A DNA stretch of 64,000 bases, taken from contig SHMX01000003.1 of assembly GCA_008080745.1 (NCBI GenBank), positions 344,971 to 408,970 of the forward strand, given 5' to 3'. The DNA is from Candidatus Thorarchaeota archaeon (GTDB lineage: Archaea; Asgardarchaeota; Thorarchaeia; Thorarchaeales; Thorarchaeaceae). A program made the position numbers and the translations under genes. Below are positions 9,939 through 48,682 of the stretch, in pieces (position 1 is the first letter of the stretch; each line of letters begins with the position of its first letter). The notes beneath the pieces were generated by a model. It had not been told where the DNA came from. It was given only the letters and a program-made list of their open reading frames with translations, and did no database searches.

Positions 9939-11138
9939 ATGGAAGTAAAGAGTCTATACATTATCAAACGAGATACTGGCGTTTGTATGTATCATCACGA
10001 CTTTACTCAGACGATTTTTGACCCTCAATTGATCTCATCCTTTATTGTGGCTATGACATCCTTTTTTGATGAAGCAACACATTCTCTGACCTCTCAAGCA
10101 CGGGCTTTTGAAGGGACTGATTACAAGATTATTGTGGAATTTGGTGAATGGACCCTTGGAGCATTAGCCGTGCTGGAAGACACTGCAGAGATGCGGGCGA
10201 AGCTGAAGAGAATCATCGATAAGTTCGAAAAACAATTCAACATTCTTCAGTGGGTAGACCTCGACCTTGCCATATACAAACGATTTGAGAAGGTGGTAAT
10301 TGAGGAGTTTATTCGAGAGCTTATTACGCCAGAAAGCGTGATATACGTCAATAGAGATTGGGATATATTCTCTAAGAATGCAGATGTTCGAAGCATGCTT
10401 CGTCTTATCCCGGATTTATGTACCGTTAAGGATGCTGCAGAGTTTCTTGAGATGCCTCTGGCATTGGTAATGAATCTGACAGCTGAAGCAATCTGGGAAA
10501 AGAGCATTAGTATTAGAAGTCAGGTAAGACCTGACGACATTTTTCAGACAACATCACGATTCCATATGGGAGATGGGCTGGCGGATGTATCTCCTGTTGC
10601 TTCGAAGGCTCTTGGTGCACTCGACGGGGAGACCCCGTTGATTATCGCTGCAGAACGAACAAAGACATCCGACATGAAAGAATTTCTCAAAGAGATCGAA
10701 CTCCTAGCAAGAAGAAGAGCAATAGAGCGGGTTTCACCAGCCCAGGCAATGTTGATTCTTCATTGTTCAACACTTGAGTCAATCTTAGAGATGGGGGCAA
10801 AAATTCTAGGTTATCGTCTAATCCGAGCCATGTTTTATACAGTAAGAAAATCTCTTCTATCACAGTACCCATGGGTCAGCTACATAGTATTGGAAGATCG
10901 GGTGGATGTGGAGATCAAGGGTTCTCTAATGGCCGCATCTATCAGAGGGCAGATTTCACCTGACACTTTGAAACAAGGTCTCATTCAACTGTTACAAAGA
11001 ATTGCAAAGGAATTTGCATGTTGTATAGGCAACGCTCCCACCAATACATCGGTTATTCGAGCAAAGCGCCTTGCACAAAAACGATTTCCAAGCATGGCTT
11101 TCGAAATTGAATGGGAGAAACTCTTTGTTTATGGATAA
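9939..11138 (+). CDS. Longin-like plus winged-helix-like cytosolic protein
   Basis: 399 residues, soluble. Residues 3-105 form an alpha/beta domain (TGVCMYHHDFTQ, then PQLISSFIVAMTSFFDEA, then YKIIVEFGEWTLGALAVLE) that aligns by eye with the cytoplasmic tails of the two giant surface proteins at 33.4-48.3 kb; its pattern fits longin-like sensory domains. A helix-turn-helix-like region (about 140-190, MLRLIPDLCTVKDAAEFLEMPLALVM) follows, again as in the surface-protein tails. The C-terminal 150 residues form another alpha/beta unit. GAGG lies 8 nt before the ATG. The next gene, a membrane protein, starts 60 nt downstream on the same strand. A regulatory or trafficking role is inferred only. 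Confidence 0.7.
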   Translation: MEVKSLYIIKRDTGVCMYHHDFTQTIFDPQLISSFIVAMTSFFDEATHSLTSQARAFEGTDYKIIVEFGEWTLGALAVLEDTAEMRAKLKRIIDKFEKQFNILQWVDLDLAIYKRFEKVVIEEFIRELITPESVIYVNRDWDIFSKNADVRSMLRLIPDLCTVKDAAEFLEMPLALVMNLTAEAIWEKSISIRSQVRPDDIFQTTSRFHMGDGLADVSPVASKALGALDGETPLIIAAERTKTSDMKEFLKEIELLARRRAIERVSPAQAMLILHCSTLESILEMGAKILGYRLIRAMFYTVRKSLLSQYPWVSYIVLEDRVDVEIKGSLMAASIRGQISPDTLKQGLIQLLQRIAKEFACCIGNAPTNTSVIRAKRLAQKRFPSMAFEIEWEKLFVYG

Positions 11139-30459: not shown

Positions 30460-31671
30460 TCAGGTTTCACTTGAAGCTGAGATATCAGCTGAGGGAATCC
30501 AGAATCGAAACAAACTACCCTGACTCGGAGAACCTGGTATTCGGTCTGAGACCTCAAGAAAACCATCATAGGTTTCAAGAATTTGACAACTCTGATGAAT
30601 TCCAATACCCACCCTTCTCTGGCTAGTATCAAAGAGGATGGATTTCATTTCGGGTGTTATTCCAGGCCCATTATCAGAGATGGAAACTTGATATCCATCA
30701 CGTACTGTTTCTAGTGTGACCCAAATGCGTTTGACCGGACGTGGGTTGTGCCGCACTGCATTCTGAAGAAGGTTCCAAATCATTTCGTCCAAGAGATCAT
30801 TTGCCTGTACCACTGCGGAATCGGTATGATATCTGATTTCTACCAATGCATCGCTATAACATTGGGAGAGAAGATTCACAGAGTCCTTAATCGCAGCAAT
30901 AAGGGATCGACATGTAAGAGGTTCCTCTTGAAGTTGTTCAGAGATCTCAATTCGAGATATCATTCGAGCGCTCCTCCAGACTGAATGTTCGATTACCTTG
31001 AGAAGATGTTCGATTTCTTCAGCAGCTGGCTATGCTCTAAGAAGTGATGTGCTGTGTAGAATTGTCTGCAGATGATTACGAATATCATGACTTAGGACAC
31101 TGAAGTAAAGTTTTGCCCGCTCTAGAGCGATACTCTCACTGTCTTGAGATTGCCTTCGTAGTATGCTCTGAGTTTTTGTGGCATTTTTGAGATGGTAGAC
31201 ATAGCTCAAATATTGACTAATTGTCTTTGCAATACGAAGGTCCAATTCGTGAAATTCGCTACTATTCCTGCCTATGTCAAATATAGCTAAAAGGTGCCCA
31301 TGATAGATGATGGGAACTACCAGACAAAAGGAATCAACAAATCTATCTTCATTTTCAGTAATTTGATATTGTACCAGGGAACGCTGACTCATTGCCTGCA
31401 ACCAATATTGATTGAGACTATGAGGAGAGAGAGAATATATTGGTTCATTACGTCTAATGTTTTGCCACCGTGAACCACTTGCGGATATGATGGTTAGTGC
31501 ATCGTCTGAGCTAACCACTGCAAAAGCAGCACTATCTGCGTGGAATATATCTATTACAATCCCGAGAAGTTCATCATTCGTTTTATTATCAGAGTTTTGG
31601 GAGAAGAACTGAATGATTTTCTGAATTGCCTCTAATACAGGATTGACAGAATCGGGCATCTCAAATTTCAC
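30460..31671 (-). pseudogene. GAF-HisKA-HATPase sensor histidine kinase interrupted by an in-frame TAG
   Basis: Read through, this is a single frame of about 403 codons. Residues 1-213 hold a GAF-type sensor domain (about 40-170) and the phospho-acceptor helix (SVLSHDIRNHLQT). TAG at 31030-31032 then interrupts the frame; 22 more codons (beginning PAAEEIEHLLKVIEH) lead in the same frame to an ATG at 30963. The remainder is the kinase domain: N box LLQNAVRHNP, G1 ISDNGPGI, G2 RRVGIGIH. The stop falls between the two helices of the dimerisation domain, so the halves are unlikely to work as designed separate genes. No response regulator lies nearby. Cytosolic; no membrane helices. Confidence 0.8.
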
Positions 31672-32726: not shown

Positions 32727-33242
32727 ATGAGCACATTGACCCCGGATGAAATTAAAGATAAAGTACGTGAGTGGTTCTCTGCTGAGGGCTCAAAAGTTGA
32801 GAGTATTACCAACCCACGAGCTGAATTCGTGTTCAAGGTCAAATTCATGAGATTCTTCTTCACTGTGGTAAGACCCAATGAGCGTGACTTCATTCAGATT
32901 GAATCACAAGTCATGATCTCACCACAACATCTCAAAGTGCTTACGGGTGAGAAGATGAAGCAATTTCAGATGGAAGCTATGAAGTTTGCCTTCTCTCAGG
33001 GAATTAATCTGGGTTTCATCCAACCCCGTCCAGGACAACAGGGACAAAAACCACCCGGCCCTGGTTTTGTAGTTTCGGATAGGATTTATGATGATGCCGT
33101 CAGTAATGATAGAATCTGGCAGACCATGCGCAGACTACATTCCGCGGTAGATATGGTTATTGCGTTGCTCAACGACGCCACTGGTCAGACACCAGGAAAG
33201 GCACCAGAACCTCCGGATCAAGGTCCGTCATACTATACCTGA
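32727..33242 (+). CDS. DUF2299-like small protein
   Basis: 171 residues. The N-terminal alpha/beta part (TPDEIKDKVREWFSAEG, then FMRFFFTVVRPNERDFI, then VMISPQHLKVL) follows the pattern of the archaeal DUF2299 family, a probable dimeric alpha/beta domain of unknown role. The tail is Gly/Pro/Gln-rich (RPGQQGQKPPGPG, then GKAPEPPDQGPSYYT) and probably disordered. The ATG has GGAG 9 nt upstream. It is transcribed in line with the amidase gene 54 nt before it. Confidence 0.65.
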   Translation: MSTLTPDEIKDKVREWFSAEGSKVESITNPRAEFVFKVKFMRFFFTVVRPNERDFIQIESQVMISPQHLKVLTGEKMKQFQMEAMKFAFSQGINLGFIQPRPGQQGQKPPGPGFVVSDRIYDDAVSNDRIWQTMRRLHSAVDMVIALLNDATGQTPGKAPEPPDQGPSYYT

Positions 33243-33435: not shown

Positions 33436-36400
33436 ATGAAACTGAAAATATTCATAGCAGTTTTTGTAGTTCTACTATTGCTAATACCCACTACATCGGA
33501 TAATATAGTAGAAAATCAATCCTCAACAACAACTCCATTATTTCATAAATCGTCCTTCGTCGCTTCTTCATTGGGGTCAGGAAGTAATTCGGATTCAGTC
33601 ATGTATTTTGAGAGAACCATTAGCTATCAAGAAATGCTCCTGCAAAACTCATATGCTACCCCAAATAATCACCAAGAGGGATTGTCATTCGAGCAATATC
33701 ATATTTCTGGCTGGTCACTTTACAAGGCTGAAATGAAGATCGATAACATCACAGCTGGACTCGAATTTGAGGTATTAGGAGTATCAAAGGATGATTTATC
33801 CTCATTTAGCATAAATAACAGCACAGGAGATCCATACGATATTCTTTCACAAGAATTGTATAATCAACCTCATAATGGACTCCTAGAGAATTATTCATTT
33901 TATTATTCAAATGAAAATTATAATCCAACATATCAGAACTATGCTTTCCTAGTCATAAGGTCCAAAAAATCTGATCCAAGTACAAATATGACAAGTGCAC
34001 ATGCATTACCCAGTAAGGCTAACTTCGAACAAAGCTGGTATACAATAACTGAACAAACAAATCTTTCAGCAGATATCTCATACTATCTATTACTTGACGG
34101 AGAAAAGTTGGTAGAATATTTTTCGACATATCCAGTATTCAAATGGATTTGCGAAACTGGTGCAGGTAGTTATGCTACACAACGACATTATTCTTTTGGC
34201 GATCAATGGACACTATTCAATCGTAATGCACTATTGAATTATACTTATACTCCATGGGATACCAACACCAATTCCGCATTGGTATTTAACAGTCCAGAAG
34301 AAATTTTCCTACAGGCAAATGGTACTAACCTATCTGGAGATACTTGGTCTTGGACTACAACTGATAACAATCTAGAACAAATTATCTTTAGCTCAAATCA
34401 GTCAATTTCAATATACAATAATATCACCTTATATTACAAAAAGACAGGAGTCGCAGAAAATACATGGTCTATTGAAACTTCTGGAAGTGATGTCACATGG
34501 AACACCACAACCATGGTTTCGTATCCTGATGACGCAGATAGTAATTCTATGAAATTGAATCTGACTATTCAGAGTGAATGGGGTACAAATGGATTGTACA
34601 AAGATACCAGTCCTGAAAACAACCATACATTTTACACAAGAGAGGGAAATGTAATTATTAGTACCGATATTACCAATGGGACTTGGACACTTTCATCGAC
34701 AGGATTTAACTATGTAAGAGAAATAGGCATATTCCAACAATCAGATTATTCAAAATCAATTCAAATACTGAAAATAACTGATATTTTGGATGTCATTCCA
34801 GTGATAAAGGATGGAGCAGGTATGAATGCTACATCGGGTAGCACAAATCTCACTCTATGGCATGACTCAGAGGTGAAATGGGCACCAGAAAATGAAACAC
34901 TGATCAATGGTTCTACAAATTATACTTGGAATGTTTCTTCAACAACATCAGAAAATGGGAAATATAGAATCGAAGTATACTGGACAAATGGAACAGAAGC
35001 AGGATATCTAACAGAAATTATTGACATCTATTATACAACTTTTCTAACAGCAATAACTGATAGTCTGACAGCTTTTACTGAGAGTTCATTTGAAATCGAG
35101 GTACAATATTATAATAACTTCAGTGATATTGGAATAGATGAAACAGGTGCAAGTTTAGTATATGATTTCGGCGGGACAAATTACACGATGTCACATCAAA
35201 CGAACGGAACTTGGAAAGCAACTGTAAATACAATTGGTTTTTCTAATGGCCCACACAGCATAACTGTCTATGCAGAGGGATATGGATATCACAACAGGAC
35301 CGTAGCTATTGATGTAATACTCTTGCATGAAGCCAAACTCGATTTGAGTTGGGAGAGTAAATCTATCGATTGGACAGAAAGCACGATTTTCTCTGTGAAT
35401 TATACTAAATTAGATGGGAGCTTGATTAGTGGAGCAAACCAGTTAGACCTTTACATTGATTCCCAATTATTAGAACTACAAGGAACAAATGGAACATATT
35501 GGATCGAGTTGAACAATACTTTTGGTCTTGGTGTTCATTCGCTAGAACTAAACATCAGCAAGCAATATTTTGAATCTGTATTTAACGACACGGTATCTTT
35601 CGAAATTACCGAAGCTAATACCACTCTTGCTATCAATTGGGACTCATCAGAAATCAATTATTTGGAGACATTCAATCTTACAGTTAGTTATACATATACA
35701 CCAACTGGTACGTTCATAGATGCCATTGCAGATAATGTTAACATCACTATTGATGGCACCACAACTTTAAACATGAATAATTCAGGAAACTTTTGGATAG
35801 CAAACTTGACTGGATTCTATTTAGATTTGGGATCACATGAATTAACAATAGAGGCATGGAAGTATGGTTATGTCTACAGAACAGATACTCTCAATATTTC
35901 TGTACTAAATGTTTCTACATCAATGAGTGTTTCTTGGAATCCTGCTAATGTAGAGATTCAACATGTGGACAATTTGGAGTTAAATGTTGATTACACTTAT
36001 GATACGGGTGATGTTCCAGATGATGCCCTCGTGAATGTTACAATTAATGGAAATATATACAATTTAGCATATACCGATGGAAGCTGGAGTACAATAATTC
36101 CCTGTAAATATTTGGGGGTAGGCGAATATTCAGCCACTATTGAGGCTTGGAGGTATGGCTATTCGTATCAAACAAATATAACCTATGGAATCAACATCAC
36201 TATTGCTTATACAACCATGATGGCTCATTGGAATTTCTTAGAAATAGACTATATTGGGCAACTTGATTTGACTGTAAATTATACTATGAATATCAATGGT
36301 ACATCTGTGCCCACTTCATCTACATTCATGAACATTACTATTGATGGTGGTAGCTCTATTGAGTTGAATCAATCTGGAAATCTATGGACTGCAAATTTGA

Positions 36401-39400
36401 CTGGAATTTATTTGGATTTGGGTACACACAACATTACCATCAAAGCTTGGTCGGTCGATTTTGAGTATCAAGTGATATATTCATCTGTAAATGTAACAAC
36501 AGTATTAACAAGCTTACAGGTGACTTGGAATCCTAACGATGTGACTATCGAACATGTACAAAATCTGAGTGTTTCAGCAGATTACACCTATCATAGTGGG
36601 GATGTACCAGATAGTGCAATAGTAAATGTATCAATTGATGGAAAATACTACCAATTTTCCTACACTGGTGCTGTATGGGAATGTCAAATTACTGGTTCCG
36701 ATTTTGATGTAGGGTTTTACGAAGCTAATGTCACAGCATGGGCATATGGTTTTGATGTAAAAATCAATATTACAGCAGGTGTGAATATTACTCAAGCAAG
36801 TACTTCATTAACCCTTGTTTGGACAAGTACTTCCACAGACTATCTTGGTTGGATCAATCTAACAGCCAGTTATGTAGTCTTAGAAACCGGAGAATCAGTT
36901 CCATTAAGCACACCGAACATCAATATTACTATCGATGGATCAACACCACTTGCATTGAATCAATCTGGGAATTATTGGGTAGCAAACCTAACAGGTTCAT
37001 ATCTGAATCTTGGAACTCATAATGTGGTTATACTTGCTTGGAGTAATACGTACCAAGAACAGGAAATCCTAGAGAGCCTTGTTATCAATAATGTCACAAC
37101 TAGTCTATCGGTAATCTGGAATCCAAATAATGGAAAAATTGAACGTGTTGAAAATTTCGCATTAAGTGTAGACTATACCTTTTTCGGTGGCGATGTTCCT
37201 ACCCCGGCTCATGTTAATGTATCCATTGACGACAATGACTATACTTTGACATATTCATCAGGAGTCTGGAGTGTTACTATCTCCGGGCTAGATTTTTCTG
37301 TTGGAGAATACTCGGCTGTTATCCATTGTTGGAAATATGGATATGCATATCAGACAAACACTACAACGATAAATATCACGATAACTGAAACCAATTTAGA
37401 TTTGAATTGGTCTTCTTTGGAGATAGACTACCTTGGGCAAATTGATCTGGTATTGAACTATACAGTTAGTATCACTGGAGATTATGTTCCCGCATTATCA
37501 TCAAATATCAACATCACAATTGATGGAAAGACTGCAATTTCGTTGAATCAGTCTGGAAATGTATGGACTGCTAATCTTACAGGAATATATCTTGACCTGG
37601 GTAATCATAGTGTTACAATAAATGCTTGGAGTGATAGCTATGCCGCTCAAGAATACTCAACTTATCTAAATGTATCAGAAGTACTCACATTCATGACTGT
37701 AACTTGGAACCCATCAGATGTCGAGATTGAACATGTGGAGAATCTTACCTTAATTATAGATTACACATACTCTGAAGGAGATGTTCCGATTAGTGCTCAA
37801 GTTAACACGACCATAAATGGAATTACATATTCTCTAACATATAATGGTTCTAACTGGCAAGTACTGATTTCAGGATCAGACATCGGTGTTGGAGTTTTCA
37901 GTGCCACAGTTAGTTCGTGGAGGTATGGTTATGCATACGCTTTGAATACAACAAGTGGAATAAATGTGACAGATGCACAAACAAATCTTTCACTGGCTTG
38001 GACAGATACAACATTAGATTACTTGGGACAAATTGAACTTACAGTTAACTATTCGGTTCTAATTACGGGCGAAGTTGTTCCAGCAGTACCATCTGAAATG
38101 AATGTTACCATTGATGGAATAACAACGATTTCACTGAATCAAAGTGGCGATTTATGGATAGCTAATCTCACTGGAATTTATCTGGATTTAGGAGACCATC
38201 TATTAATAGTACAAGCCTACGCTGATACTTACGAATTTTCTCAAGCCTCAGAAACGATTACAGTATTAAATGTTTCAACAAATCCATTGCAAGTCATATG
38301 GCAACCAGAGAATGTCACCATAGAATACACTCAGTATCTCAATTTGTCTGTGGCCTATACCTATGGAGTTGAAGATGTTCCAGGAACAGCTTTAGTGAAT
38401 ATTACTATCAATTCACTTACTTGGTCTTTGAATTACTCCAATGGTTTTTGGGAGGGTTCAATAATTGGTGAAGACATTGGTATTGGTATATTTACAGCTG
38501 AAATCGCTGCATGGTTATATGGATACGAGGAACAGCTAAATCTGACCTATAACGTCAATATCACAGAAGCCTCAAACACCTATGTGGTTATTTGGGAGCC
38601 GTCAGACAGAACAATATCCTACATTGAATTATTCAATATATCAGTAATTTACACGCATAATTATGAACCGATTTCCGATGCAATAATCAACGTTACATTT
38701 GATGGTAGTATCACATATAATCTGACATTTAGTGAAACAGATGAGAGATGGCACTTCTCAATAAATGGCACTAACCTAGACTTAGGCGTACATAACATCC
38801 TAATAGAAGCGTGGGCTCAAGGCTATAAAACAGGACTAACAATCAGTTCTGTGTTCGTGTCGAACGTTACAACATGGTTCAATATGGATTGGAACCCTCT
38901 GGATGCTAAGGTTGATCATCTTAGTAAAATCAATCTGACTTTGGACTATCAACACTCATCTGGAAATGTACCTTCTGATGCAATTCTAAATCTAACTATC
39001 AATGGAATGACATCTCCACTCATCTTGATAAACAATAGATGGTATATATCAATTAATGGATCGGATTTGGGTAAAGGGGAATTTTCTGCATATATTCAAG
39101 GGTGGAGATATGGATTTGAATATATAACTAACACAACCAATGTAAATATCACAATAGCTTTTACTAATATTGAATACAAGAATAGTAATCTTTCATTTCA
39201 GTATATGGGCCAATTTGACATTCAATTTAATTATTCATATTCTATTTCTGGAGAAACAATTAATATTCTTAGTCCAAATGCAAACCTGACCATTGATGGT
39301 GAAACAACAATCGAACTTAATCAAACAGGGGACACATGGACGGCAAACATTACTGGTGAATTTCTTGACTTGGGAGAGCATGAAATTATTTTCAGTTTCT

Positions 39401-42400
39401 GGGCAGAAGGTTATCAGGAGCAACTGTTGATTTTATCGCTCTATGTTGAAAATGAATCAACATACCTATCCGTAGATTGGAATCCATCAAATGTTACAAT
39501 CCAATATACCGAAACATTAGAAATTTTTGTTGACTATGAATATGACACCTCCGATGTACCAGATACTTCGATTGTTAATGTAACAATAGATGCTCATCAT
39601 TACTCATTATCTTATAATGGAGGACAATGGTATATTTCGATTCCTGGTGAAACAATCGGAATAGGTGTATTTGAAGCAGTTATAGAAGCATGGACATATG
39701 GATTTGAGTACAAAACGAATACCACTTTTGGAATCAATATCACTCTTGCTGCTAATTCGTTTATTGTAGATTGGTGCCCAGATGTATTAGAAACATCATT
39801 CATTACAGAATTTGAGATAAGAGTGTATTTCACTCACGATTGGCAACCAATTCTTGGGGCTAATGTGTGTTTAATCAAAAACGGAACTATAATTGATTAT
39901 TTCAGCTATAATTCAACTAACGAGTCTTATGACCTCCTTATTTCAGCGAAAACAATTGATTTGGGATTATGGAATATAACCGTATATGCGAATAAAATAG
40001 GTTATGAAAATCAATGGGATTCTAAAATATATACTGTGATCGAAGATAGCACAACACATCAGCTGTCATGGACGACGATGCAAATATCCTATGTTAATTC
40101 TACAACACTTAGAGTGAATCTAACAGCATCAGATCATACTCCGCTCCCTTCGGTCACATTCCAAGCGACAATAGACAACAAAATATTTTCAGGAAATGAG
40201 GTTGTCGAGGGTTGCTACGAGTTCATCTTGGGTCCCGAACTATCCATTGGGATTCATAATATAACATTTGATGCTTCGAAATATGGCTATAGTTTCAATT
40301 TGCCGACACCATCAATAGAAATTATTGAAGCAGCTACAGAGGCATTCTTTCACATCAACAATAAAGAGCTATATTATGATGAAGCATTATCACTGTCCAT
40401 TATCTATGAATTGACAAATGGCAGTGTTATTGAATCAGCAACGTGTCAGCTTGAAATTGATGACAAACCTATTTCGGTTCAATGGGATTTTGATCATTGG
40501 TACGTGACTATTTTTTCAAACTCTTTAGGAATCGGAAATCATAATGGCTCATTAAATCTAACGCTATATGGCTACGAATCTCAAACGATTGATTTCAATT
40601 TGACTATTCAGAATATACCGACCAGATTGGATGTTTCTGGAAGCTTCTTCAGCTATGTCAATCAATCATTTACTCTTGAGATAGTACTAACCGACCTGAG
40701 AAATAATTCTCCAATTACACCAGTTACATTTGATATTTCATGGTCCGAATTGTTCCATATTGATGTTAATTCTTCAGAAGTTTATCAAATTGTCTTTATC
40801 ACTGAAGGATTTCATGTTGGAAGTGTTCCACTTGCGATTAGTATACTTAATGAAGGAATTAGTGATTCGGAATGGACAGGTAGTATTGATATTCGAGCTA
40901 TTCCGCTCAATATCATGACGGAGGAGGAGATTTCTCAATATGAAAATGAGATGGTGAATATCTCTGTTAGTATTAGAAACGCAATCACGGACGATAATGT
41001 GTGTTGGAGCAAAGTGGACCTGAGTTCGGATATCATCAATACAACTCTCTATTGGAACGATATTTCCCAATACGAAGTTAGTTTTGAATTGCCATCAGAT
41101 AACCCTGGGAACTATACACTGATTCTTTCTATTGAGACATATGATTGTGAAAATTACACATTATCCATCGAGCTTGAGATTCTGGAAAAAGCAACCATAA
41201 CAATCACTCTATCTTCTGAAGCAGAGGTTATTGCTGGAGAAGATCTTCAAGTTAGTGCGTTGGTTGAGAGAAATAATCAGCCAGTAATGGGTGCAATAAT
41301 AGAATTTCATGCAACTATACTAATGAATGACGGTTCTGAAAGAATACTCGAGGACTCTCAAATTTCTAACAACGAGGGTATATGTACCGCCACATTTAGC
41401 ATTCCACTTGAGGCTAAATCATTGCAAGTGTGGGCATCTTATGATGGGAATGTTCAAAATCATAATGCCACATCGAGTTTCAGTTCAGTATCAGTTTATT
41501 CTGCAAGAGCCCAGATTGGAGAACTCCTGTGGAATACCTTTTCTAATCCATTGGCTTTGATTCTGTTTGCAGGATTGATTTCAATTATCTTGATCAGAAA
41601 ATCCAGCCAAAATAGAAGTTCTGTTAAAGAAGAACCCATCGAAGAAGATATCGTCCTTGAGGCTTTTGATGTTGAAGATAGTACTGCATTGTCAGTATCA
41701 ACGGAAATTCCTCCTGATGATGAATCAATAGAGGTATCGCTCATATCCGAAGAGGTATTTGTCCCAGAATTCCTAATTATAATAGAAAATAGAGAACCAA
41801 TTCTTTCCTACTCATTACAAGGAAATGAGATAGCACCACATCTCATAATTGCAATTTCAAATGAGATTATCAGAAGAAGTCCAAGGATAGGTGATAATTT
41901 TGATATTTCACTATCAGATTTGAGATTACAATGTTACCGAAATGAAGATGCGATAGGGGTAATTGTTGCTCATTCACAACTTACATCTGATCAAAAAATG
42001 AATCTTGAATCACTCATTGATATGATAACACCCATTCATTCAAAATTAGAGGATAACGAGTCTGAAATAAACCAATTACTGATTGCTCAGACAAATTCGC
42101 TATTTTACGCAAAGATTCTTGATAATCTGAAGATTGATGATATTGGAGAGTTAGAGAATATCGATAAAGAGTTAGCTATTGCTCTTCAGAAAATTATTGA
42201 TATAGACCAAGAATTTACTGTCAAAGCAATTAAGGATCAAATTTGTATGGAGCTTGATATTAATTCAGCTATCCTGCTATCGAGAATAGAATATCTTGTT
42301 TCAAAATCGGTGATACAGCCCCACTACTCAGAGGATAAATTACTCATTTCTAAGAATTTAGAACTAAGTGACGAGGAGCGAATTTTGGCTAAACTTGCAT

Positions 42401-42558
42401 TCTCAGATGGAATGACTAGAGCAAAAATTGCAGTTGCATTAGATATGCCCATTTCACGTGTTGGACGTATTATCAGAGAACTATTGAAGACTAAACCAGG
42501 TTTAGATGAAATCAGAGATGGGCGGAAAAGACTAGTGGTATATAGTTATAAATTATAA
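33436..42558 (+). CDS. Giant Ig-repeat surface protein with cytoplasmic longin-like/winged-helix tail
   Basis: 3040 residues. A signal peptide (LKIFIAVFVVLLLLIP) precedes an N-terminal ectodomain (about 60-600) shared with the next gene (YHISGWSLYKAEM, NQPHNGLLENYSFYY). Then come about 21 tandem Ig-like beta-sandwich modules of 95-100 residues (about 630-2690). Most alternate between type A (WNPxxV...GDVP...VNVTING) and type B (DYLGQ...NITIDG...LNQSGNxWTANLTG), with WKYGY-like strands. N-x-S/T sequons are extremely frequent. One transmembrane helix (about 2703-2721, LALILFAGLISIILI) is followed by an acidic linker, a longin-like domain (about 2780-2870) and a winged-helix end (GMTRAKIAVALDMPISRVGRII). 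The ectodomain is probably a glycosylated cell-surface stalk or adhesin. Confidence 0.9.
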   Translation: MKLKIFIAVFVVLLLLIPTTSDNIVENQSSTTTPLFHKSSFVASSLGSGSNSDSVMYFERTISYQEMLLQNSYATPNNHQEGLSFEQYHISGWSLYKAEMKIDNITAGLEFEVLGVSKDDLSSFSINNSTGDPYDILSQELYNQPHNGLLENYSFYYSNENYNPTYQNYAFLVIRSKKSDPSTNMTSAHALPSKANFEQSWYTITEQTNLSADISYYLLLDGEKLVEYFSTYPVFKWICETGAGSYATQRHYSFGDQWTLFNRNALLNYTYTPWDTNTNSALVFNSPEEIFLQANGTNLSGDTWSWTTTDNNLEQIIFSSNQSISIYNNITLYYKKTGVAENTWSIETSGSDVTWNTTTMVSYPDDADSNSMKLNLTIQSEWGTNGLYKDTSPENNHTFYTREGNVIISTDITNGTWTLSSTGFNYVREIGIFQQSDYSKSIQILKITDILDVIPVIKDGAGMNATSGSTNLTLWHDSEVKWAPENETLINGSTNYTWNVSSTTSENGKYRIEVYWTNGTEAGYLTEIIDIYYTTFLTAITDSLTAFTESSFEIEVQYYNNFSDIGIDETGASLVYDFGGTNYTMSHQTNGTWKATVNTIGFSNGPHSITVYAEGYGYHNRTVAIDVILLHEAKLDLSWESKSIDWTESTIFSVNYTKLDGSLISGANQLDLYIDSQLLELQGTNGTYWIELNNTFGLGVHSLELNISKQYFESVFNDTVSFEITEANTTLAINWDSSEINYLETFNLTVSYTYTPTGTFIDAIADNVNITIDGTTTLNMNNSGNFWIANLTGFYLDLGSHELTIEAWKYGYVYRTDTLNISVLNVSTSMSVSWNPANVEIQHVDNLELNVDYTYDTGDVPDDALVNVTINGNIYNLAYTDGSWSTIIPCKYLGVGEYSATIEAWRYGYSYQTNITYGINITIAYTTMMAHWNFLEIDYIGQLDLTVNYTMNINGTSVPTSSTFMNITIDGGSSIELNQSGNLWTANLTGIYLDLGTHNITIKAWSVDFEYQVIYSSVNVTTVLTSLQVTWNPNDVTIEHVQNLSVSADYTYHSGDVPDSAIVNVSIDGKYYQFSYTGAVWECQITGSDFDVGFYEANVTAWAYGFDVKINITAGVNITQASTSLTLVWTSTSTDYLGWINLTASYVVLETGESVPLSTPNINITIDGSTPLALNQSGNYWVANLTGSYLNLGTHNVVILAWSNTYQEQEILESLVINNVTTSLSVIWNPNNGKIERVENFALSVDYTFFGGDVPTPAHVNVSIDDNDYTLTYSSGVWSVTISGLDFSVGEYSAVIHCWKYGYAYQTNTTTINITITETNLDLNWSSLEIDYLGQIDLVLNYTVSITGDYVPALSSNINITIDGKTAISLNQSGNVWTANLTGIYLDLGNHSVTINAWSDSYAAQEYSTYLNVSEVLTFMTVTWNPSDVEIEHVENLTLIIDYTYSEGDVPISAQVNTTINGITYSLTYNGSNWQVLISGSDIGVGVFSATVSSWRYGYAYALNTTSGINVTDAQTNLSLAWTDTTLDYLGQIELTVNYSVLITGEVVPAVPSEMNVTIDGITTISLNQSGDLWIANLTGIYLDLGDHLLIVQAYADTYEFSQASETITVLNVSTNPLQVIWQPENVTIEYTQYLNLSVAYTYGVEDVPGTALVNITINSLTWSLNYSNGFWEGSIIGEDIGIGIFTAEIAAWLYGYEEQLNLTYNVNITEASNTYVVIWEPSDRTISYIELFNISVIYTHNYEPISDAIINVTFDGSITYNLTFSETDERWHFSINGTNLDLGVHNILIEAWAQGYKTGLTISSVFVSNVTTWFNMDWNPLDAKVDHLSKINLTLDYQHSSGNVPSDAILNLTINGMTSPLILINNRWYISINGSDLGKGEFSAYIQGWRYGFEYITNTTNVNITIAFTNIEYKNSNLSFQYMGQFDIQFNYSYSISGETINILSPNANLTIDGETTIELNQTGDTWTANITGEFLDLGEHEIIFSFWAEGYQEQLLILSLYVENESTYLSVDWNPSNVTIQYTETLEIFVDYEYDTSDVPDTSIVNVTIDAHHYSLSYNGGQWYISIPGETIGIGVFEAVIEAWTYGFEYKTNTTFGINITLAANSFIVDWCPDVLETSFITEFEIRVYFTHDWQPILGANVCLIKNGTIIDYFSYNSTNESYDLLISAKTIDLGLWNITVYANKIGYENQWDSKIYTVIEDSTTHQLSWTTMQISYVNSTTLRVNLTASDHTPLPSVTFQATIDNKIFSGNEVVEGCYEFILGPELSIGIHNITFDASKYGYSFNLPTPSIEIIEAATEAFFHINNKELYYDEALSLSIIYELTNGSVIESATCQLEIDDKPISVQWDFDHWYVTIFSNSLGIGNHNGSLNLTLYGYESQTIDFNLTIQNIPTRLDVSGSFFSYVNQSFTLEIVLTDLRNNSPITPVTFDISWSELFHIDVNSSEVYQIVFITEGFHVGSVPLAISILNEGISDSEWTGSIDIRAIPLNIMTEEEISQYENEMVNISVSIRNAITDDNVCWSKVDLSSDIINTTLYWNDISQYEVSFELPSDNPGNYTLILSIETYDCENYTLSIELEILEKATITITLSSEAEVIAGEDLQVSALVERNNQPVMGAIIEFHATILMNDGSERILEDSQISNNEGICTATFSIPLEAKSLQVWASYDGNVQNHNATSSFSSVSVYSARAQIGELLWNTFSNPLALILFAGLISIILIRKSSQNRSSVKEEPIEEDIVLEAFDVEDSTALSVSTEIPPDDESIEVSLISEEVFVPEFLIIIENREPILSYSLQGNEIAPHLIIAISNEIIRRSPRIGDNFDISLSDLRLQCYRNEDAIGVIVAHSQLTSDQKMNLESLIDMITPIHSKLEDNESEINQLLIAQTNSLFYAKILDNLKIDDIGELENIDKELAIALQKIIDIDQEFTVKAIKDQICMELDINSAILLSRIEYLVSKSVIQPHYSEDKLLISKNLELSDEERILAKLAFSDGMTRAKIAVALDMPISRVGRIIRELLKTKPGLDEIRDGRKRLVVYSYKL

Positions 42559-42766
42559 TGCCTTTCGAAATATCGAAATTGGTTAGAGCCCAGTGTATTG
42601 AAATAGTCTTATGTAGGTAAAGTTATCACGACCCAAGTGAAATTCCGTTGAATATAGAAAGAAGGATAGATACGTACACAATTCGTATAAGGGATAATTA
42701 TCCAACAACATTGTATTGCGTATATCCACAAGAAGACACATCATGCTACACTTGTGAGGGACCACA

Positions 42767-45700
42767 ATGAAGAGAGCATTCCTGTCAATAATGGCAATCG
42801 TTCTGTTGACTGTGACAATTGCATCACCGCAATTTGCCACCCATCAGAATAATCTAGAAACAGCTAGTAATCCACTACTAAAACAAGAAACGGTGTTATC
42901 ATCTGTAGTAGAAAGTGGAGATGAAATTTCATCTATACAACATATGATACGGGAAATACCAAATCAGCAGACTACAATTCTAAATTCGTACGTAAATCCA
43001 AATACGCATAATTTAGTATTAGATTTCTCACAGTATCATGTTCCAGGTTGGTCCCTATACAAAGCAGATATGGATATTGAAAATATAACTGCAGGATTAG
43101 AATTCGAAGTATTAGGTGTTTCAAAAGACGATAGCACATCTTTTAGCATAAATAATGACACGGGAGATCCCTACGATATTTTGTCACAAGGTTTCTATAA
43201 TCAACCTCATAACGGACTGTTGCAGAACTATTCTTTCTATTATCAGGATGTTGGTTATAACCCGGATTTTCAAAATTATGCATTCTCAGTAATAAGGTCA
43301 GATAGATCCAACCCTAGTACAAACATGACCAGTCCTGTTGCTTTATCTACTACAAGTCTCGCTTTTGTTTGGCGAACAATAACTGAACAAACAAACTTGT
43401 CAGCATATACAACCTATTATACCCTCATTGACGGAGAGGCATTAGTTGAATATACTGGTAACTATCCTGATTTTCATTGGGTCTGCGAGAGCGGAGCAGG
43501 TGATTTTAATACTGAACGTCATTATTCCTTCGGAGACCAGTGGACAATATTCAATCGAGAAGCTCTATTGAATTACACATATACACCATGGAATGTTTCG
43601 ACAAATTCAGCTCTAATATTTCAGAATCCTGAAGAAATACTGTTGCAAGCAAATAGCAGTGACTTATCAGGAAGCATGTGGTCATGGACAACCTCTACTG
43701 ACAATCTTGAACAGATTACATTTAGTTCCAATCAGTCGGTCAATATATTCAACAACCTAACTCTGTACTACAAACAAACCGTGACAAGTACAACACAATG
43801 GTCAATAGAAACAACTGGCGATCCAGTTACTTGGAATGTTACAACTGCATTATCATATCCAGAAGTTACAGGTATTACGGAGAAGAATTTGAATATAAGT
43901 ATCCAATCGGATTGGGACACATCGGGACTATATAATATTACTACACCGTCCACCAATCATAGCACATATGAAAGGTATCTGGATATTGTTGTCTGTAGCA
44001 GTCTTACAAACGGTACTTGGACTTTAGTTTCAACAGGATTCAACTATATGACCGATTTAGCAGCCTATCAACAGAGTGACCATTTGAACCCTGTATCAGT
44101 TTCTGTCATTACGGACACGCTTGATATCATATCTCAAATTGAAGATGAGGGAGGTACTAATGCAACTACAGGAAGTACTAACCTAACTATATGGTACGAA
44201 GGATCAGTAATCTGGGCACCTACTAATGAATCAGTTATCGATGGCTCGACAGAATACACCTGGGATATTTCCACAATTACATCAGGTAACGGAGAATATA
44301 CCATAGAAGAATACTGGACTAACGGTACTGAAGCAGGATACAGAGCGTATAGCATTGTGGTGTATTTCCCAACAGATCTGACTCCAAGCTCATCCACTAT
44401 TTTCGCGTATGCTGAAAATTCGTTTACATTTAGTGTCCAATTTGATGATACATTCACTCCAAAAGGGTTGAATGACTCAGTTGCATCCGTTGAGTATTCA
44501 TTTGATGGAGGAGTATATACTGCAATGACCCATGATGCTGGGGGAAACTGGTCAGCCACTGTTTCAACAATTGGAAAGACAGAGGGAAGCTATAATCTTA
44601 TAGTAAATGCAACTGGTTTTGCACTAGAAAACCAAAGTATCACGATATCCGTCGAACTAGTATATGAAACACTTGCTCTTGAATGTACATGGTCACTTCC
44701 AAACGAGGATAATATATCATACTTGGAGAACACTGAACTCACTGTTAGATATCAGACCACGGGATACAACATATCCGACGCAATTGTCAATGTCACTATT
44801 GATGTATACACTTGGGACCTGACATTCGATGCTACAACAGAAACTTACAAAGTCCAGGTTAATGGTACAGATTTCCAAGATGGTCTGGGCACATTCCCCG
44901 TTACAATTGAGGCATGGAGTCCTGGACACGCACCCCAAACGAATACAAGTCTCGAACTTACCATCATGGCTGAAGCAACCTCAATGACCGATATCTGGAC
45001 GGGTCTATCGATTGATTATCTGGGACAGGTTGATGTCACAATTGATTATACCATTGTTTCGACAGCATCAGAGGTTCCTATGGGAGAAGTAGTAGGCAAT
45101 ATTACCATAGATGGAACTACAGTAATTTCGCTCACACAATCAGGTACTCAGTGGATTGCCAACCTCACAGGGGCCACGATTGATCTTGGAACACACACAG
45201 CTGTGATTCATATTTGGGCTTATGGATACCAATACAGAACAGCTAGTGAAACTCTTGATGTCAGTAATGTCACAACATCCATAGATGTATCTTGGACACC
45301 ATTGAATCTAACCAGACAATATTCTGGTTATTATGATGTAGTTGTTGATTACACCTATTATGGAGGAGATGTTCCTGGTTCAGCACTTGTCAATGTTACA
45401 ATCAATGGACAGACTTTCGGACTCTCATATTCCACAGGGGCATGGAGAGTATCGATTGCTGCATCAAATCTTGATATTGGAGAGTATTCAGCCTCAATCA
45501 GTGCTTGGCTCTATGGATACGCACACCAGACAAATACTACTTCAACTCTAAATATCACACTTGCAAATACAACAATAGTCACAAATTGGTCCAACTATGA
45601 TCTGTACTTTACTCATTCCGTAGACCTTAACATTACATTACTTGATATCTATGCACAGCCAATTACTACAGCTCTTGTTAATGCATCTTATGAAGGAACG

Positions 45701-48316
45701 AATTATACGCTAAGTTATTTGGGAGGAGGAACACACCGACTTGTCTTCAATGGATCAGACGGCCTCGGAACCTATCCAATCCAAATTTACACTTGGAATT
45801 ATGGATTCTATAATGAAACAACATCAATTACTCTGAACATAGTGCAAACACCCACAAGTATCGATGCATCTACAAAAATACAAGGTTATAGTGAGAGTAT
45901 TTTATATCATGATGGAAAGGTGACCTACTCAGTTCTGTTTGAAGATATCGATAGCAATCGGATTGATTCAGCCCTAGTGAACTTTACTATAGATGGGATA
46001 ATTTACAATATGACAGCTCTCGGAAATGGTAATTACACCATATCCTTTGATGGAGAGGACCTGGGTGTAGGCTCATTCGCTGTTGAACTACACGCATGGA
46101 AATACGGATATGCTCCCCAAACCTTGACGCCAACAATAGTGGTCAATCCAAACCCCACCTATATAGAAATTATCGAAGATACAGAAACGACTATCTTTCT
46201 TAATGACACCAGAACAGTAAGAGTACGATACATAGACAATCACACTGGAATGATTCTCTCGATTGATACAGAATACATCTCTTGGCCCGGAACTATATCA
46301 TATAACAATCCTTCAGCAGGAGAGTATGAGATTGAGTTCTCAACATTTTACACCCTAGGTAATCATATTCTCAATGTCACATTGGTAAAGGAAAACTACA
46401 CAATAGGTCAAAAAATATGGGAGATAACCATACGCCCAGTCAATACAATATTCATACCTATTGGTGAGTATACCGAATATGAGAATGAAAGTATTACCTT
46501 TAGTGCTAATTATACCGATATAGATCATCATGAGTTCATCTATTGGGGAAATGTGAGCATTACAATTGATGGTGTAACATATCAGTTAGAATACACCACA
46601 AGTGGAATATATAGTCGTACAATACCTCTCACTATTGAAGATGGGGATTATACAATCACCTTTGAGGCGATAGCTGACGGATGTGCGACAAATACCACTT
46701 ATGTTCTTCTTAACCTCCTTACTAAGACGGATGTGCAATTAGTTTTAGAAGTACCAAACACAGCTACGGAGGGGAATACTATTGGAATACAAGCTATACT
46801 TACTGATGCCGTAGATAATCCAATAACCTTTGCAACAGTGACCTTTTCCGTGGATGTTCGATTCGAAAATGGTACAGTTAGACAATTTACCTATTCAGAC
46901 ACGACTAATGCAAATGGTGAAGCTAATTGGGCATACGTAGTACCAGACGGAGGGGAGAATAGAGTGAACTCCCTTACAGTCAATGCGTATTATGATCCCA
47001 CGGTTGATAACGTAAAGAGCAATTGGGATGCTTCAGCTAGCGCTGTAGAGATATCGGTCTCTTTACCATGGGATAGACAACTGGTCTCCTTTGCCCTTAG
47101 TAGAGAAGGATTGATGATAATTGGAATACTTCTCATAGTAGGAGCAGTCGCCACATACTATAACAAGTCAGTAAAGCCGAAGAGATTTGCAGAAACAAGA
47201 GCCCTTGAGAAACAGCTAAGTGATTTCAAAGACCTTGAAGGATTACAACATTTCATGGCAGTTTATCTTGACCGTGGAACCTGTGTATTCTACCATCCTT
47301 TCACAGAAACACGTATCCAGCCAGACCTGATTAGCGGATTCATTGCTGCAATTACCAGTGTCTATGGAGAGATTAAAGGTGATGGCGTCCAAGGAACTCT
47401 GGAGGAAATCAATTACCATGGTCTCAAACTTAATAGCTACAGTGGTAAATATGTGATTGGTATTCTTATTGTAGAGGGAGATATGACACCATTGCTGCGC
47501 GATAGATTGCAATGGTTTGTGGAATTATTTGAGCAACAATACGATGCGGACCTCGATGGTTGGATGGGAGTGATGGACTGCTTCAATCCAGAATGGATAG
47601 TATCCAATCTACATGCAGCCTTCAATTATCATTGGTTGCTACCTCATCGAGTAGGAGATATAACAAGCATTTCAAAGAAAGATGCAAAATATCTAGAAGT
47701 TATTGTTGAGAATCTTGATGAAAAAGGAGAGATTCGGCTTCAAGATGTTATCGAGCCACTTGCGGAAAGGATGAATATAGATGACTTTGAAGTCTTGGAA
47801 TATCTTCTTAATATGACCGATCGACAGGTCCTCGTCCCTATTAGTATAAATATTGTCTTACAAAGAAAGGGACTGGGTCTCGGTGGGGCAAGTGTATCTG
47901 ATGATTTGGACGATTATGAAGAGGTCTATATTGATGAAACCGACCCTGAAGTCGAAACTACACCAGATCCTGATACCGAGGAAACATTGGATGTAGTAAA
48001 AGAGCCAATAGAATCCGATTCAGAGATTCCAACACCCGAGGAGGGAATAGAGGAAGTAGAATTGGATAAGGCAACTTTACTAGAGACTGAGGAAGAGAAA
48101 GATACGGAAATGGAAAAAATTTCTGACCAAGAGAGTCTTGATTTCGAACTTCCAGATTTCACAGAGGATGAACTTGAACACCATCAAGCACCAATTGAAG
48201 ATGTTGTTCAAGAAGAGGAGGAACCAGAAGCTGAAGTGGATCCGAAAGAGGCATTTGCTTCAGAGTTGATAGGCATCTTATCAAAGGAAAAGAAAAAAGA
48301 AAAGAAGGAAGAGTGA
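42767..48316 (+). CDS. Paralogous Ig-repeat surface protein with longin-like cytoplasmic tail
   Basis: 1849 residues, a tandem paralogue of the upstream giant. It has a signal peptide (MKRAFLSIMAIVLLTVTIA), the shared N-terminal ectodomain (YHVPGWSLYKADM, NQPHNGLLQNYSFYY, HYSFGDQWTIFNREALLNY), about nine Ig-like modules (about 540-1430) and many N-glycosylation sequons. One transmembrane helix follows (about 1446-1464, LMIIGILLIVGAVATYY), then a longin-like domain (about 1485-1590; RGTCVFYHPFTETRIQ, LISGFIAAITSVYGEI) and a winged-helix-like segment (GEIRLQDVIEPLAERM). The tail is strongly acidic and ends KKEKKEE. GAGGG lies just before the ATG. It shares architecture with the upstream gene but has fewer modules. 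Confidence 0.9.
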   Translation: MKRAFLSIMAIVLLTVTIASPQFATHQNNLETASNPLLKQETVLSSVVESGDEISSIQHMIREIPNQQTTILNSYVNPNTHNLVLDFSQYHVPGWSLYKADMDIENITAGLEFEVLGVSKDDSTSFSINNDTGDPYDILSQGFYNQPHNGLLQNYSFYYQDVGYNPDFQNYAFSVIRSDRSNPSTNMTSPVALSTTSLAFVWRTITEQTNLSAYTTYYTLIDGEALVEYTGNYPDFHWVCESGAGDFNTERHYSFGDQWTIFNREALLNYTYTPWNVSTNSALIFQNPEEILLQANSSDLSGSMWSWTTSTDNLEQITFSSNQSVNIFNNLTLYYKQTVTSTTQWSIETTGDPVTWNVTTALSYPEVTGITEKNLNISIQSDWDTSGLYNITTPSTNHSTYERYLDIVVCSSLTNGTWTLVSTGFNYMTDLAAYQQSDHLNPVSVSVITDTLDIISQIEDEGGTNATTGSTNLTIWYEGSVIWAPTNESVIDGSTEYTWDISTITSGNGEYTIEEYWTNGTEAGYRAYSIVVYFPTDLTPSSSTIFAYAENSFTFSVQFDDTFTPKGLNDSVASVEYSFDGGVYTAMTHDAGGNWSATVSTIGKTEGSYNLIVNATGFALENQSITISVELVYETLALECTWSLPNEDNISYLENTELTVRYQTTGYNISDAIVNVTIDVYTWDLTFDATTETYKVQVNGTDFQDGLGTFPVTIEAWSPGHAPQTNTSLELTIMAEATSMTDIWTGLSIDYLGQVDVTIDYTIVSTASEVPMGEVVGNITIDGTTVISLTQSGTQWIANLTGATIDLGTHTAVIHIWAYGYQYRTASETLDVSNVTTSIDVSWTPLNLTRQYSGYYDVVVDYTYYGGDVPGSALVNVTINGQTFGLSYSTGAWRVSIAASNLDIGEYSASISAWLYGYAHQTNTTSTLNITLANTTIVTNWSNYDLYFTHSVDLNITLLDIYAQPITTALVNASYEGTNYTLSYLGGGTHRLVFNGSDGLGTYPIQIYTWNYGFYNETTSITLNIVQTPTSIDASTKIQGYSESILYHDGKVTYSVLFEDIDSNRIDSALVNFTIDGIIYNMTALGNGNYTISFDGEDLGVGSFAVELHAWKYGYAPQTLTPTIVVNPNPTYIEIIEDTETTIFLNDTRTVRVRYIDNHTGMILSIDTEYISWPGTISYNNPSAGEYEIEFSTFYTLGNHILNVTLVKENYTIGQKIWEITIRPVNTIFIPIGEYTEYENESITFSANYTDIDHHEFIYWGNVSITIDGVTYQLEYTTSGIYSRTIPLTIEDGDYTITFEAIADGCATNTTYVLLNLLTKTDVQLVLEVPNTATEGNTIGIQAILTDAVDNPITFATVTFSVDVRFENGTVRQFTYSDTTNANGEANWAYVVPDGGENRVNSLTVNAYYDPTVDNVKSNWDASASAVEISVSLPWDRQLVSFALSREGLMIIGILLIVGAVATYYNKSVKPKRFAETRALEKQLSDFKDLEGLQHFMAVYLDRGTCVFYHPFTETRIQPDLISGFIAAITSVYGEIKGDGVQGTLEEINYHGLKLNSYSGKYVIGILIVEGDMTPLLRDRLQWFVELFEQQYDADLDGWMGVMDCFNPEWIVSNLHAAFNYHWLLPHRVGDITSISKKDAKYLEVIVENLDEKGEIRLQDVIEPLAERMNIDDFEVLEYLLNMTDRQVLVPISINIVLQRKGLGLGGASVSDDLDDYEEVYIDETDPEVETTPDPDTEETLDVVKEPIESDSEIPTPEEGIEEVELDKATLLETEEEKDTEMEKISDQESLDFELPDFTEDELEHHQAPIEDVVQEEEEPEAEVDPKEAFASELIGILSKEKKKEKKEE

Positions 48317-48382: not shown

Positions 48383-48682
48383 TTGCCATGGCACATTGAT
48401 AACTACTACATACACAGTGGAGCAGTACTCTGCGTGGAGATATCTATTCCACTTATTGATTTCCTATTGACTGATATCGACGATGTGAGAAATGCGTGGT
48501 TTAGCATGCTCCAATCATTTGTAGATCAAAATCCTGGATTCGAGCTATCCTGGGAGATGGAGCCAAGAGATGAAGATGCACTGGTCATTGTTCGAATAGC
48601 AAAAATTGGCAAGCTTAAACAATTTACCGACCTTGAGAAAAAGGCAGCACTTTCAGCAGCTGATGCGCTATTCGACGAATAA
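48383..48682 (+). CDS. Small unknown protein
   Basis: Up to 99 residues; the start is uncertain. The frame opens at a TTG, while a GTG at about 48436 would begin VEISIPLIDFLLTDID. The product is a soluble alpha/beta protein ending KKAALSAADALFDE, with WFSMLQSFVDQNPGFELSW in the middle. No family is recognised. It follows the second giant protein gene by 66 nt and could be part of its transcript. Confidence 0.55.
   Translation: MPWHIDNYYIHSGAVLCVEISIPLIDFLLTDIDDVRNAWFSMLQSFVDQNPGFELSWEMEPRDEDALVIVRIAKIGKLKQFTDLEKKAALSAADALFDE

Follow-up and report, generated by a model that had tools for sequence, protein, structure and literature searches.

Plexins carry Ig-like (IPT) modules in their ectodomain, a single transmembrane (TM) helix, and a cytoplasmic domain that acts on Ras-family GTPases. 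The two archaeal receptors described here, designated P0001 and P0002, are likened to plexins only in how they might work, and no homology is claimed: plexin tails have a GAP fold, unlike the longin/roadblock tail of P0002, and the ectodomains differ too. The fold of the P0002 tail is shared instead with the Roadblock/LC7 and longin proteins, which include MglB, LAMTOR/Ragulator, and the small subunits of TRAPP, as well as Thor-RB and the MK-D1 roadblocks of Asgard archaea (PMC10933270). These known proteins are mostly soluble or peripheral, whereas in P0002 the domain serves as the cytoplasmic tail of a receptor that crosses the membrane once and bears a huge ectodomain, and a winged helix follows the domain.

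Two further groups of Asgard proteins come close. Multidomain proteins likewise combine longin domains with Ig-like, HTH, and TPR modules; they are portrayed as patchy in occurrence and ESCRT-related, and the accessible parts of the reports describe no signal peptide, TM-separated ectodomain, or near-universal family (PMC11188069, PMC10936438). The giants of Thorarchaeota and the aloposons also include tandem homologous giant neighbours; these are discussed as possible mobile elements, and the accessible part of that report mentions neither a tail fold nor a receptor architecture (PMC8813620). The receptor architecture was not found described in the open-access full-text literature, a search scope outside which most subscription papers and bioRxiv fall, and its novelty is therefore provisional.

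The window (the whole 64,000-nucleotide stretch of a Candidatus Thorarchaeota contig that was analysed) contains both receptor genes in tandem (Table 1). A preliminary description had reported two adjacent ORFs of 3040 and 1849 residues, each encoding a signal peptide, a shared N-terminal ectodomain, about 21 or 9 Ig-like modules, and one TM helix. The coordinates and lengths proved exact, with both frames intact, and an iterated module HMM counts 21 and 8 modules (of about 97 residues each in P0001). Sub-threshold Pfam matches add one divergent module in each protein, so that the preliminary count is correct. Hydropathy likewise gives each protein a single helix resembling a signal peptide and one clear TM helix near the C terminus, and the N-terminal ectodomain is indeed shared, the two proteins being 41% identical when aligned from residue 1 to about 1323.

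Table 1. Features of the receptor locus, in positions of the window.
Feature	Coordinates	Strand	Basis or remark
Giant receptor P0001, 3040 aa	33436..42558	+	Frame open without stops
P0001 signal peptide, aa 1-22	33436..33501	+	Hydropathy
P0001 shared N-terminal ectodomain, aa 60-534	33613..35037	+	About 61% identical to that of P0002; family-wide
P0001 21 tandem Ig-like modules, aa 535-2585	35038..41190	+	Module HMM
P0001 divergent membrane-proximal Ig-like module, aa 2593-2687	41212..41496	+	Sub-threshold Big_3_5/YtkA matches
P0001 TM helix, aa 2702-2720	41539..41595	+	Hydropathy
P0001 divergent longin-like domain, aa 2773-2886	41752..42093	+	Tail profile, alignment A4
P0001 first winged-helix-like segment	42148..42333	+	Inside same tail-profile match as longin-like domain
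P0001 C-terminal winged helix (wHTH2)	42361..42546	+	Alignment A5; retained by all giants seen
Receptor P0002, 1849 aa	42767..48316	+	Frame open without stops
P0002 signal peptide	42767..42838	+	Hydropathy
P0002 shared N-terminal ectodomain, aa 60-535, chain of beta-sandwiches	42944..44371	+	AlphaFold
P0002 8 Ig-like modules, aa 536-1320	44372..46726	+	Module HMM
P0002 membrane-proximal Big_1-like module	46760..47071	+	Sub-threshold Pfam match, aa 1332-1389
P0002 TM helix, about aa 1440-1460	47084..47152	+	Hydropathy
P0002 juxtamembrane helix, tail residues 10-30	47177..47239	+	AlphaFold, pLDDT about 91-94
P0002 longin/roadblock-like domain, tail residues 32-163	47243..47638	+	AlphaFold, Foldseek
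P0002 winged-helix-like domain, tail residues 176-240	47675..47869	+	AlphaFold; weak TnsA_C and MCM_C winged-helix matches
P0002 acidic disordered linker	47885..48229	+	pLDDT about 40-48 over most of stretch
P0002 conserved C-terminal helix/peptide (xxFxxEVExLLxKE)	48230..48310	+	Orthologues; helix in AlphaFold model
Small conserved gene, 99 aa, TTG start	48383..48682	+	66 bp after P0002 stop

Basic residues follow each TM helix, and therefore the tail is expected inside the cell. Sequons are about twice as frequent as chance in both ectodomains (125 against 49 ± 6 in shuffled sequence for P0001; 54 against 24 ± 4 for P0002) and nearly absent from the tails, which have two each. Each protein thus possesses the signal peptide, Ig-like array, single TM helix, and cytoplasmic tail of a single-pass surface receptor with Ig-like repeats. 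The best explanation of these sequence features is that P0001 and P0002 are tandem single-pass cell-surface receptors or adhesins of an Asgard-wide family, and that they are probably glycosylated. AlphaFold models residues 25–745 of P0002 with a mean pLDDT of 88.9; a fold search with the ectodomain gave no single global match in the PDB and only partial ones to assorted beta-sandwich chains, and hence no ligand is named.

Giants also stand beside a P0002-type gene in seven other genomes (G017, G025, G059, G061, G064, G067, and G033). In a tree of the N-terminal regions, giants and small receptors separate by type in four genomes of genus g6, while in this genome and in G017 the two receptors of the pair cluster together. 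The grouping by genome may reflect either separate duplications or gene conversion.

The tail of P0002 was modelled with AlphaFold using 22 relatives. Its core is confidently predicted as a five-stranded sheet in the order beta-beta-alpha-beta-beta-beta-alpha, the order of the longin/roadblock superfamily. Beyond the core come further helices, a part resembling a winged helix, an acidic linker predicted to be disordered, and a helix at the very end; the tail as a whole has a net charge of −59. A fold search, which the preliminary description had proposed for both tails, was run on that of P0002, and the 50 best Foldseek matches in the PDB are all members of this superfamily or complexes containing them (best E 7.9e-5). 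The top matches comprise a chain of a TRAPP subassembly, MK-D1 Roadblock3, small subunits of adaptor and COPI complexes, Fuzzy-Inturned, and LAMTOR. Many of the 50 are regulators or effectors of GTPases, namely TRAPP, LAMTOR/Ragulator, Mon1-Ccz1, Fuzzy-Inturned, and Arf1-bound adaptors. An N-terminal helix marks the roadblock subtype and an extra C-terminal helix the longin subtype; in the model, strand 1 is preceded by a helix and strand 5 is followed by helices. Sequence similarity to solved members is usual in the superfamily but is not required for membership, and neither phmmer nor a profile search against PDB sequences matched the P0002 tail to solved longin or roadblock proteins. Single-protein searches of Pfam and of PDB sequences assigned no family to either tail, and the fold search alone was informative. 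The predicted structure supports placing the P0002 tail within the longin/roadblock superfamily as a whole. The C-terminal peptide is retained in orthologues and seemingly doubled in some; its spacing was compared by eye with that of an ESCRT-III MIM1, but the residues differ, and no such identity is claimed.

One reading of the locus makes both proteins passive surface stalks or adhesins, in which the ectodomain does the work, the tail does no more than anchor and dimerise the protein at the membrane, and the whole partly substitutes for an ordered S-layer. The huge, sequon-rich Ig stalks fit this reading, as do the many unordered surface structures of 'Ca. L. ossiferum', which has no highly ordered S-layer (PMC9834061). 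Against it stands the distribution of constraint: among Thorarchaeal orthologues of P0002, the longin core has a mean pairwise identity of 62%, compared with 41%–44% for parts of the ectodomain and 36% for the winged helix, and is the most conserved part measured. Its central helix reaches 90% mean column identity; as in the Roadblock/LC7 and longin proteins, conservation thus peaks at the helix through which roadblock dimers pair (PMC10933270). The recurrence of the longin module on unrelated membrane and soluble proteins and the dedicated small gene that follows the receptor, both described below, also argue against passive stalks, and we regard that reading as unlikely.

The preliminary description had assigned a longin-like domain plus a winged-helix-like segment to both tails. 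AlphaFold and Foldseek bear this out for P0002, whereas the two tails turn out not to be equivalent. The tail profile matches residues 2824–2962 of P0001 at 15.0 bits on the full protein (the maximum in reversed ORFs being 5.0), and the match misses the first strands and the central helix of the longin domain. The P0001 tail is only 22% identical to its same-genus counterpart, compared with 75% between P0002 tails, and in the giants of genus g6 the longin part is absent, leaving the terminal winged helix as the sole recognisable tail domain. From these comparisons, the putative longin part of P0001 is judged divergent or degenerate in a lineage-specific manner. Most orthologous giants keep only the membrane-tethered winged helix, and a profile comparison does not recognise this as the same domain as the winged helix of P0002 (0.4%).

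Across members, the terminal winged helix matches HTH_24 (8e-6), MarR_2, DUF7343, and HTH_23 in Pfam and also resembles TrmB. The likeness to DNA-binding winged helices (HTH_24, MarR_2, TrmB), together with the state of the g6 giants, would suit membrane-tethered transcription regulators whose winged helices are cut free by proteases or engage DNA at the membrane. The strongly acidic tail of P0002 and the poor conservation of its winged-helix region speak against such a role; moreover, protein interactions are the presumed role of HTH/PCI domains in Asgard multidomain proteins (PMC11188069). Regulation of this kind is accordingly considered very unlikely. In the receptor reading, the giant would mainly present a membrane-tethered winged helix and is probably the longer-reaching co-receptor.

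The genes around the pair follow a conserved order of oxidoreductase genes, CN hydrolase, DUF2299, receptor(s), small gene, LarA, and VTT protein. Most of the loci compared preserve it across genera; the exceptions are L047, which has none of the usual upstream genes, and L052 (G016), which is non-syntenic. The DUF2299 protein (32727–33242, + strand) lies directly upstream of the receptor pair and is kept there in most compared genomes; adjoining genes for a GAF-domain protein and a histidine-kinase-type ATPase (30460–31671, − strand) are situated just upstream of the locus.

In two Thorarchaeota MAGs, tandem giant genes with homologous neighbours were reported and related to the aloposons of Heimdallarchaeum (PMC8813620), which would fit a reading of the receptors as cargo of such a mobile element. 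The aloposon hallmarks, a tRNA integration site and a MinD/ParA gene set beside the tandem giants, were not found at this locus: the window holds no tRNA, the upstream genes are metabolic rather than of the MinD/ParA set, and the same chromosomal neighbours are kept in most compared genomes. An origin as aloposon cargo is thus disfavoured and appears extremely improbable.

The small gene downstream is not mentioned in the preliminary description. Where the contig extends past a P0002-type receptor gene in Thorarchaea, a profile nearly always finds a homologue of the small gene directly 3′ of the receptor. Of the 47 genomes in the family, 34 carry a single copy, and the 52 genomes from other families have none; in G016, it lies far from the receptor (C1:1291988-1292296 and C1:620005-625149, respectively). 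The 99-residue product has no confident match in Pfam or the PDB, and hhalign does not recognise it as a piece of the longin tail (0.3%). In some orthologues its tail is rich in lysine, with a charge opposite to that of the receptor's acidic linker.

The N-terminal ectodomain of P0002 matches 26 of 59 genomes, and the complete relatives that were fetched have a signal-like helix, a TM helix near the C terminus, and a tail. The tail profile reaches much further, matching 144 of 147 genomes of the Asgard phylum at E ≤ 1e-8; among the matches listed, 128 of 150 sit in frames of at least 700 residues. Twenty regions were picked for their long frames and hence form a biased sample; apart from L175, which belongs to this genome, the remaining 19 all come from other families. 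In all 20, the TM helix starts 20–34 residues ahead of the tail match, with 29–108 sequons before that match, and 18 have a hydrophobic N-terminal helix; of the exceptions, L161 is a complete frame with no helix above threshold and L174 is cut at a contig edge. About half of the 20 are matched by the ectodomain profile too, which in the Lokiarchaeal L096 and L097 covers part of the N-terminal region as well as Ig modules. All 40 confirmed loci of one narrow-pattern genome scan bear an Asgard or unnamed-archaeon title. Judged by these profile matches, related receptors appear near-universal, occurring in nearly every Asgard genome examined. The preliminary description had called the pairing of ectodomain and tail unusual; this stands against known biology, but within Asgard archaea the pairing is standard. 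The tail HMM search of Asgard genomes, a check that it had proposed, shows the linkage to be conserved, and because the linkage recurs in dozens of independent assemblies with conserved gene order, a joining of the tails by assembly error is ruled out.

Lokiarchaeal and some other members have about 200–400 extra residues after the tail, with weak TPR/MIT-like similarity. These helical extensions may hint at membrane cargo or curvature receptors of an ESCRT- or trafficking-like machinery, in which the tail and its extensions recruit membrane-remodelling factors. Such a function would accord with Asgard multidomain proteins that join longin to Vps28-C, Ig-like, HTH/PCI, and TPR modules (PMC11188069, PMC10936438), and with the position of some surface assemblies of 'Ca. 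L. ossiferum' at high membrane curvature (PMC9834061). The MIT and TPR matches, however, fall below Pfam cut-offs, the Thorarchaeal receptors carry no such extension, and no ESCRT gene is found among the annotated neighbouring genes, rendering a trafficking role quite unlikely.

The tail domain is not confined to receptors. Heimdallarchaeal and Helarchaeal loci also encode soluble proteins with it, and the same longin subfamily occurs on MFS-like or other multi-TM membrane proteins and on TPR-like or other soluble proteins (L008, L011, L005, L012, and L200). Its presence on unrelated proteins of this genome, such as multi-TM proteins and TPR-like arrays, is as would be expected of an output module. 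Elsewhere in the window, a 399-residue soluble protein without a Pfam match (9939–11138, + strand) starts with the receptor-tail longin subfamily and resembles in layout the ~425-residue Heimdallarchaeal proteins L100, L101, and L104–L106.

Ras-family matches number 32 in this genome. One protein, L196 (G000:C4:194604-196502), joins an Arf/Rag-like GTPase to a downstream longin-family domain, and its end resembles a winged helix; its overall layout is longin-GTPase-longin. A broad longin profile scores the longin domain at 20.5 bits (at most 6.5 in 825 reversed ORFs), whereas the strict receptor-tail profile gives 4.4 bits, within the control (maximum 5.0). Relatives of L196, full-length or in parts, occur in many Thorarchaeal genomes. 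As a link between receptors and GTPases, the GTPase-fused longin domain is suggestive only, and the conserved neighbourhood of the receptor pair contains no GTPase gene. The preliminary idea of a surface system that reports to a membrane-traffic-like machinery is supported in part: the P0002 fold and the conserved linkage bear it out, and a GTPase or membrane-traffic partner is putative, argued from that fold, the 32 Ras-family matches, and L196.

We propose that the stalk would contact a matrix, other cells, or protrusions of the same cell, and that contact would cluster the receptors. The tails might then pair in the manner of roadblock dimers, through the strongly conserved central helix, and the tail dimer would sit at the membrane as a platform for recruiting or regulating a GTPase of the Ras superfamily, with the winged helix, the terminal peptide, and the small partner adding binding specificity. 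Longin and roadblock domains also serve as plain scaffolds. Such a scaffold role has been suggested for one Thorarchaeal roadblock (PMC10933270). Contact, dimerisation, and binding are all inferred, and we hold the proposal of contact receptors whose dimerising longin/roadblock tail acts as a GTPase platform to be the leading, if not yet a probable, reading.

The GTPase link is open to experiment now, since receptor tails, small partner, and GTPases alike are ordinary soluble proteins. E. coli has already been used to produce proteins of Thorarchaeal SMTZ1-45 (PMC10933270). Ras-like GTPases and longin/roadblock domains abound in Asgard genomes, but the papers found leave unsaid how the outside of the cell is reported to this machinery; the receptors are concrete candidates for that task. 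'Ca. L. ossiferum' displays unidentified surface structures, some of whose densities connect protrusions or occur where curvature is high (PMC9834061), and the receptor family supplies candidates for these too. In its broadest form, which we put forward more tentatively, the proposal is that near-universal Asgard receptors tie extracellular contact to control of Ras/Rab/Rag-type GTPases through a longin/roadblock tail, that this arrangement would predate eukaryotic endomembranes, and that the receptors could account for some of the unidentified surface densities of Asgard archaea. Relatives of the eukaryotic ancestor may thus pass surface contact straight to GTPase control.
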